This document shows, piece by piece, positions 45,696-47,498 of a stretch of 64,000 nucleotides of DNA. How positions within the stretch are numbered: the stretch's first letter is position 1; each line of letters begins with the position of its first letter. Origin of the DNA: Flammeovirgaceae bacterium (GTDB lineage: Bacteria; Bacteroidota; Bacteroidia; Cytophagales; Cyclobacteriaceae); NCBI GenBank assembly GCA_021298015.1, contig JAJTGY010000012.1:1-64000 (forward strand), in the 5' to 3' direction. Made by a program: the position numbers and the translations under genes. The notes beneath the pieces are model-generated. The model had not been told where the DNA came from, made no database searches, and saw only the letters and a list, made by a program, of their open reading frames with translations.

Positions 45696-46262
45696 ATGGA
45701 AAACCCCGCGCAGCAGGAGCACGATTTGCCCAAACATGATGATTCGGTGGTGGAAGAAACGCCTCCTATGCAATCAACCGAGCCGGTGACGGAATCTTCC
45801 GGCAAGCCGGAAGCCGATCCGCTAAAGAAATTACAGGACGAATTGGCAGAGGCCAAAGACAAATACCTGCGGTTGTATGCCGAATTTGACAACTTCCGCA
45901 GGCGCTCGGCTAAAGAGCGCCTCGAACTGATTCAGACGGCCAACGAAAAACTTTTGCGCGACTTCCTTCCCGTTGCCGATGACTTCGAACGGGCCGAAAA
46001 ATCATTTGCGGGCCTGACCGATAAAGAGGCCGAGGGATTCAAACTGATCCACAACAAGTTCAAAAAACTACTTGACCAAAACGGGGTGAAGCCCATGGAG
46101 GCCGGACCTGCCGTAGCTTTCAATCCCGACCTGCATGAGGCCATTACCCAAATACCGGCTCCGGAAGAAAAGTTGAAAGGTAAAATCGTAGACGTGGTGG
46201 AGAAAGGTTACCTGCTCCACGACAAAGTGATTCGCTTCGCCAAAGTGGTGGTAGGCCAATAA
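45696..46262 (+). CDS. grpE: nucleotide exchange factor GrpE
   Basis: Co-chaperone of 188 residues that releases ADP from DnaK. An acidic, disordered N-terminus of about 45 residues leads to the long coiled-coil helix ([20 protein letters not shown]) and the family core [19 protein letters not shown]. The C-terminal beta-wing has [17 protein letters not shown] and [21 protein letters not shown]. Intact. It is followed after 10 bases by dnaJ, so the two are co-expressed; dnaK is not in the window. Confidence 0.96.
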
Positions 46263-46272
46263 TTCACCTCTT

Positions 46273-47382
46273 ATGAGCAAGCGTGACTATTACGAAATCC
46301 TCGGTGTTACCAAATCGGCCAGCGCTGACGAAATCAAGAAGGCTTACCGGAAGGTAGCCATCCAGTTTCACCCGGATAAAAACCCGGGAAACAAAGAAGC
46401 GGAAGAGAAATTCAAGGAGGCCGCTGAGGCCTACGAGGTGTTGAGCGATGCGGACAAGCGCGCCCAGTACGACCGTTTTGGTCATTCCCGGGGCAATGGC
46501 GGTTTCCGAGGCCACGAGATGAACATGGACGATATCTTCTCGCAGTTTGGTGACATTTTTGGAGGCGGCAGTCCGTTCGACAGTTTCTTTGGCGGAGGAG
46601 GCGGGCGAAGCCGCACCCGCAAAGGCTCCAACCTGCGCATCAAACTGAAGCTGACACTGGAAGAAATTGCCAACGGTGCAGAGAAAAAAATTAAAGTGAA
46701 CCGCCTGGTTCAGGCCGATGGTGTCACGTTCAAAACGTGCCCTGCTTGTCAGGGACAGGGTCAGGTGCGCAAGGTGGTGAACACGATGCTCGGCCAAATG
46801 GTCTCGGCCAGCACCTGCTCGAGTTGCGGAGGCTCAGGCCAGATCATCGATAAACGCCCTCCGGGTGTCGATAACTCCGGATTAGTCAGCAAAGAAGATG
46901 TGATTTCGGTGCGCGTACCGGCCGGGGTGGGCGATGGTATGCAACTCTCGATGTCTGGCAAGGGAAATGAAGCTCCGGGTGGTGGCCTGCCAGGCGACCT
47001 GCTTATTCAAATTGAAGAGGTTGAGGATAAGGTGCTGAAACGGGACGGCAATAATCTGATTCATGATCTGCACATCAGTTTTATTGATGCCGCGCTGGGC
47101 ACCTCGGTGGAAGTGCCCTCGGTGGGCGGCAAGGTGCGCATCAAGATTGATCCCGGAACGCAAAGCGGTAAGATTCTGCGGCTGCGCGGCAAGGGTTTGC
47201 GCGACCTCAATGGCTACGGTACGGGAGATCAACTCATTTATATCAATGTCTGGACACCTAAGCGACTGACGTCCGAAGAGCGGGCGAAACTGGAGTCGCT
47301 TAAACAATCTCCGAACTTCCAGCCGAGTCCTGAAGCCGGTGAAAAGGGCTTTTTCGAGCGAATGAAAGAGTATTTTGGTTGA
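46273..47382 (+). CDS. dnaJ: chaperone DnaJ with only zinc centre II
   Basis: Hsp40 co-chaperone of 369 residues that feeds substrates to DnaK and triggers its ATPase. The J domain (residues 4-70) is intact with the HPD motif in [11 protein letters not shown] Gly/Phe-rich linker follows ([20 protein letters not shown]). The zinc domain is odd. A normal DnaJ has four CxxCxGxG motifs; here only the second (CPACQGQG, C156/C159) and third (CSSCGGSG, C182/C185) remain. The places of motifs 1 and 4 read LVQADGVTF and [10 protein letters not shown] and carry no cysteine. The C-terminal beta domains ([17 protein letters not shown]...) and the dimer region follow normally. The call is firm; the lost centre is discussed as a finding. 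Confidence 0.95.
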
Positions 47383-47450: not shown

Positions 47451-47498
47451 AAACCCTGGGGAGAACTCCCCGTTTAACCTAGCTATGGGTTTTTTTTG
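47451..47498 (+). terminator. terminator-like structure after dnaJ
   Basis: AAACCC (47451-47456) can pair with GGGTTT (47487-47492), enclosing a small inner hairpin GGGGAGAACTCCCC; an eight-T run closes the structure. It lies about 70 bases downstream of the dnaJ stop. The remaining gap to 47566 holds no recognisable feature. Confidence 0.6.

Follow-up and report, generated by a model that had tools for sequence, protein, structure and literature searches.

Locus and domain organization of the two-motif DnaJ

The question raised by this locus is whether a DnaJ that carries just two CxxCxGxG motifs has decayed or has exchanged one zinc site for another element, and what such a change would mean for its work as a chaperone. 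The window is the whole stretch of DNA that we analysed, 64,000 nucleotides of a Flammeovirgaceae bacterium (assembly GCA_021298015.1, contig JAJTGY010000012.1, positions 1 to 64,000). Ten bases separate the grpE stop codon from the dnaJ start codon, and the gene pair contains the following features:

45696-46262, + strand: grpE, DnaK nucleotide exchange factor, directly 5' of dnaJ (PF01025, E-value 5.9e-43)
46273-47382, + strand: dnaJ, ATG start, 369 aa, with just two CxxCxGxG motifs
46285-46473, + strand: J domain, residues 5-67, HPD at 33-35 (PF00226, 100.7 bits)
46486-46611, + strand: Gly/Phe-rich linker, residues ~72-113 (model pLDDT below 50 at 72-113)
46633-47259, + strand: C-terminal substrate-binding domains (CTD) with the zinc region inserted, residues 121-329 (PF01556, 154.6 bits)
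46711-46737, + strand: motif-1 remnant QADGVTFKT, residues 147-155, 9 residues below most four-motif DnaJ
46738-46761, + strand: CxxCxGxG motif 2, CPACQGQG, residues 156-163, half of zinc site II
46762-46815, + strand: beta-hairpin between motifs 2 and 3, residues 164-181 (AlphaFold2 strands 164-171 and 174-181)
46816-46839, + strand: CxxCxGxG motif 3, CSSCGGSG, residues 182-189, half of zinc site II
46849-46884, + strand: cysteine-free motif-4 replacement ([12 protein letters not shown]), residues 193-204, length unchanged

The translation of the 46273-47382 frame contains four cysteines in total, C156/C159 and C182/C185, and lacks motifs 1 and 4, just as the initial annotation had reported. 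Its description of the J domain and the flanking beta domain as normal is borne out by the PF00226 and PF01556 scores listed above. The range that it gave, 46690-46880, covers the altered region, but the motif-4 replacement extends to 46884. The zinc-region profile PF00684 matches the protein partially, over the middle positions 12-56 of 65. The HPD motif of the J domain is invariant across 28/28 aligned two-motif DnaJ.

The genome of the window is a draft of 115 contigs (99.52% complete) that encodes one full-length DnaK, and the window DnaJ is its sole PF00684 match over the cut-off. The only other match to the window DnaJ within this genome was a J-domain stretch (query residues 3-69), and a similarity search of the genome revealed no second J-domain protein with such a C-terminal domain. 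Judged from its parts and its position, the window DnaJ is most likely the main DnaK co-chaperone of the cell. Just past dnaJ, at 47455-47495, an inverted repeat is followed at some distance by a T run; by eye it resembles a terminator, and the terminator scan did not list it.

Coupled loss of zinc site I and its spread

The initial annotation had proposed that the four motifs be scored in relatives, and this was done in a comparison set of 212 distinct Bacteroidota DnaJ which, being fetched by similarity, gives no prevalence. Proteins were extracted by the presence of at least one CxxCxGxG motif; among the fetched loci this failed only for L002, the C55 frame described below, which is no dnaJ. 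The extraction skipped the DnaK loci L181 and L182. From the 219 proteins obtained we dropped the duplicates L001, L012, L019 and L180, the fragment L142, and the identical L206 and L219, while near-copies remain. Both cysteine pairs of site I were present in 107 of the 212 proteins, neither was present in 105, and one alone was present in 0, counts that do not represent independent events because the proteins are kin. The two-motif pattern is thus common to 105/212 DnaJ, and all 105 keep the site II cysteines. Two members of the larger group, L043 and L084, have three canonical motifs yet eight cysteines (spacing or glycine altered) and were counted among the 107. The dnaJ of one four-motif relative, at G071:C120:60868-63212 (L142), is split in two pieces within the zinc region, through either a sequencing error or conversion to a pseudogene.

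The matched range of PF00684 tells the two states apart, with positions 1-65 in four-motif and ~10-57 in two-motif DnaJ. When 98 genomes of the window's family were searched, 94 gave a match over the cut-off, 83 in the two-motif range and 11 over the full range; the rest comprised 3 genomes without a match and 1 with a weak match in a long frame. Within the order, the families f2 and f9 contain both states. A phylum sample of 395 genomes, in which the state was read by eye from PF00684 E-values, placed 59/98 genomes of the window's class in the two-motif band of 2e-9 to 4e-12, whereas 39 scored stronger (four-motif). By family, the band was occupied by 9/9 genomes of f1, 8/8 of f25 and 40/40 of f26. 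No E-value between 1e-8 and 1e-12 occurred among the 297 genomes of other classes, 7 of which had a weak match or none and count for neither state, and in this phylum sample the trait was seen in one class only.

The proteins of three of the four extracted sets agree with the PF00684 score of their own genome, the broken L142 excepted. Named two-motif records include Chryseotalea, Dawidia, Fulvivirga, Roseivirga, Flavobacterium, Gillisia, Salegentibacter, Salinimicrobium and Tenacibaculum, and the four-motif form was found among the fetched records of Pedobacter, Mucilaginibacter, Aquirufa and Saprospiraceae. Chitinophaga records were four-motif as well, except for a metagenome bin so named (L106). 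A weak PF00684 match was also observed at G000:C55:34466-34558, inside a 967-aa frame that we take to be probably UvrA; many genomes of the family have a match to the same profile positions in a long frame, in most cases of 940-1016 aa.

Shape and constraint of the replacement

The two sides of site I were altered in different ways. On the motif 1 side, two-motif DnaJ are nine residues shorter and read ~x-A-x-G-V-T-F/Y. The distance from the strand anchor to motif 2 is 13 residues in two-motif DnaJ (103/105 rows measured), versus 22 in 93, 21 in 4 and 23 in 1 of the 98 four-motif rows; in 20 two-motif and 10 four-motif rows the pattern took an anchor 19 residues further upstream, and these spacings were corrected accordingly. 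On the motif 4 side, 26 residues separate the end of motif 3 from the P-x-G-[VA] anchor, both in the 32 two-motif DnaJ with an anchor match and in 102/103 four-motif DnaJ measured. Motif 4 has been rewritten at equal length in the 105, mostly as P-x-x-[AV]-[DN]-x-x-G-[LM]. With this pattern, which was broadened between the first and the final scoring, the motif-4 signature was found in 104 of the 105 two-motif DnaJ, the motif-1 signature in 101, and both in 100. Two two-motif DnaJ of the window's family, L208 and L211, carry another motif-1 remnant of equal length, VDP[DN]TKF, and their motif-4 replacements lack the proline in its normal position.

We calculated pN/pS by segment for 28/30 loci of the genus, leaving out L024 (ambiguous letters) and L027 (partial). 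Since pS was near saturation (0.77-0.84), the values rank the segments and do no more. The replaced segments span just 9 and 12 codons. The motif-4 replacement had the lowest value of the six segments (0.086), followed by the J domain (0.101), the motif-1 remnant (0.140), the CTD (0.153), the Gly/Phe-rich linker (0.154) and the hairpin (0.169). In its congeneric form, P-x-G-V-D-x-S-G-L, the first P, the G, the D, the last S, and the final G and L are invariant in the 28 congeners. The motif-4 replacement is under purifying selection. Together with the 107/105/0 distribution of the site I pairs, this supports the initial proposal that one entire site was cleanly removed and did not decay.

Predicted structure and proposed role of the neck

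AlphaFold2 gave a mean pLDDT of 78 for the window DnaJ, with 85-89 for the ten-residue blocks of the neck, and 79 for a four-motif Cytophagales relative, in which the strand order of the zinc region was the same. The predicted neck strands span residues 152-155 and 190-194 in the window DnaJ versus 165-167 and 202-204 in the four-motif relative; the models are metal-free, and the pairing of these strands was read from secondary structure alone. Strands that are longer at the neck would be in keeping with a closure that needs no metal. Among PDB entries, S. pneumoniae DnaJ (6jzb) was the best match in both sequence and fold (fold E-value 3.3e-27).

We consider it probable that the window protein is a DnaK co-chaperone with one zinc ion, at site II, in which a metal-free neck replaces site I. 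Zinc site I, at the base of the zinc region, would have been exchanged for this neck, in which the shortened motif-1 stretch and the rewritten motif 4 (P-x-G-V-D-x-S-G-L) most likely form a short beta ladder with each other. The ladder would keep the motif 2/3 hairpin in position, and the mechanical task that zinc performs at site I most likely falls to the conserved neck. In E. coli DnaJ, site II serves the work with DnaK; because the window DnaJ keeps site II, its DnaK-dependent work should be intact, and its holding of clients without DnaK may be as before, weaker or retuned. In yeast Ydj1, growth in heat needed an intact zinc domain II and not I, but mutation of either domain left the purified protein impaired in assisting folding (Fan 2005, as reported in PMC6584821). 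Losing site I may therefore carry a cost.

A different outcome, suggested in the initial annotation, is that the loss of site I has removed the stand-alone holdase activity and that clients are now only targeted to DnaK. This would agree with E. coli DnaJ, which did not protect luciferase from aggregation when zinc domain I was disrupted and behaved like wild type when domain II was disrupted (Linke 2003, as reported in PMC6584821); a truncated E. coli DnaJ showed severely reduced substrate binding (PMC5818400). However, the E. coli cases are mutants, presumably with the neck left unrepaired, whereas the window DnaJ has a rewritten neck under constraint, and according to PMC5818400 the suppression of rhodanese aggregation was unaffected in Ydj1 without its first zinc domain. 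Small heat-shock proteins were detected in 168/194 genomes of the order and 16/16 of the window's family, and by eye the two-motif families showed no excess, so no compensation for a loss of holdase activity is evident. We regard a loss of stand-alone holding as unlikely.

The change might also have been selected to save zinc or to reduce oxidation-prone thiols, with little effect on chaperone function. DnaJ is usually abundant, and half of its zinc ligands are gone while the remaining protein is kept; yet site II and its thiols are retained in all of the 105, and we find this explanation rather doubtful. Drift after a relaxation of function is highly improbable: decay often sets in with the loss of metal ligands, but not one of the 212 DnaJ has only one site I pair, and no other of the six segments is as constrained as the motif-4 replacement. 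An error of sequencing or assembly could be suspected in a draft genome of 115 contigs, and the initial annotation had named a corrected assembly with all four motifs as a finding that would overturn it. Another genome of the genus (G007) encodes a protein that is 99% identical and has the same motifs, and the same state recurs in 105 distinct DnaJ, which leaves such an error a negligible chance. The exchange of site I for a conserved metal-free neck is the reading that we retain.

Relation to known J-domain proteins

The window DnaJ shares the J domain, the Gly/Phe-rich linker, the CTDs and the motif 2/3 hairpin with the class A proteins E. coli DnaJ, yeast Ydj1 and S. pneumoniae DnaJ (6jzb). 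These have eight cysteines and two zinc sites, whereas the window protein has four cysteines, one predicted site and a conserved cysteine-free replacement. As class A is described in PMC12799103, by eight cysteines for two zinc ions, the protein with its four cysteines falls outside it. It scores above the cut-off of the NCBIfam model NF008035 (358.8 versus 338) and below that of the equivalog TIGR02349 (367.4 versus 377.2). The gene is a dnaJ by descent, adjoining grpE and branching among four-motif DnaJ. From the sequence comparison, the protein is thus not class A by cysteine count but is a DnaJ by descent, operon and fold, and the eight-cysteine definition fails for the dnaJ of these bacteria.

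Class B proteins of the CbpA type are defined by the absence of a zinc finger, and the window DnaJ, which has motifs 2 and 3 plus the hairpin, is not one of them. CbpA, the actinobacterial DnaJ 2B (PMC12799103) and Thermus DnaJ (4j80, assigned to class B in PMC8215388) are DnaJ-like proteins with a reduced or absent zinc finger; as described there, the class B proteins lack the entire zinc finger, whereas the window DnaJ keeps half of it and is encoded in a grpE-dnaJ pair. The endoplasmic reticulum (ER) proteins DNAJB11/AtDjA8 are closer in description: PMC12799103 reports a truncated zinc finger with four cysteines and 30 rather than 60 residues, and suggests that it is held by disulfides. 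Like the DNAJB11 type, the window DnaJ has four cysteines where class A has eight and keeps the protruding hairpin, a likeness of description that does not imply that the same half is shared; DNAJB11/AtDjA8 are eukaryotic ER proteins with a halved zinc finger, whereas the window protein is bacterial and just nine residues shorter.

Among the matches listed in a literature search (titles and abstract starts, with supplements outside the search), no description of a two-motif DnaJ in bacteria was found, which does not establish its absence from print, and the main text of PMC12799103 holds no word beginning with "bacteroid". The roles of the two DnaJ zinc sites have so far been argued from engineered mutants. 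Many Bacteroidia offer a natural test, as exactly one site has been removed from the main DnaJ with a conserved cysteine-free element in its place, and comparison of two-motif with four-motif near relatives would let the role of site I in client holding be told from its role in holding the neck.

Number of origins

For the phylogenetic analysis the 30 loci of the genus were thinned to 8, 117/154 of the remaining rows were used for the largest tree, and the 92-row sets were hand-picked. In trees built without the replaced segments, the number of state changes needed was 9 (117 rows), 6 and 8 (92 rows) and 5 (79 rows, Cytophagales-centred); well supported branches alone force 1 (117-row tree) and 3 and 2 (92-row trees) for the two-motif group. 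A single origin was recovered in 0% of 200 bootstrap trees in both 92-row analyses. A single two-motif clade was not rejected, with AU p values of 0.258 and 0.13 (92 rows) and 0.175 in a further test. Nor was the tree joining the Cytophagales and Flavobacteriaceae-like two-motif DnaJ rejected (43 rows, AU p 0.279); it fell 22.6 log units short of the host-order tree, in a short search whose free tree was itself 7.4 below the host-order tree. For a clade of two-motif Cytophagales, the AU p values were 0.294 (42 rows), 0.245 (41 rows) and 0.25 with Flavobacteriaceae-like rows added.

We compared identities by segment in 16, 18 and 12 hand-grouped rows. The hairpin of two-motif Cytophagales is 69% identical among themselves, 67% to four-motif Cytophagales and 57% to Flavobacteriaceae-like two-motif DnaJ, and the corresponding values for the CTD are 69%, 65% and 56%. 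In contrast, the two replaced segments are 60 and 47% identical to those of Flavobacteriaceae-like two-motif DnaJ and 18 and 14% to those of four-motif Cytophagales. A block transfer of the zinc region is disfavoured, as the hairpin follows host order and the replaced segments go the opposite way.

The segment-wise identities speak for vertical descent of the gene with repeated replacement, whereas the equal length and common signature across orders speak for one origin, which the topology tests do not reject. Several Bacteroidia lineages may have independently swapped site I for the same metal-free neck (the nine-residue deletion plus P-x-x-[AV]-[DN]-x-x-G-[LM]), a reading that we put forward tentatively, at somewhat less than even chances.

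Among the eight-cysteine proteins, motif 4 of L043 (Thermoflexibacter ruber) has the sequence CDGACGGKDGL; three residues separate its cysteines, it ends in GL like the cysteine-free replacement, and it is possibly an informative intermediate.
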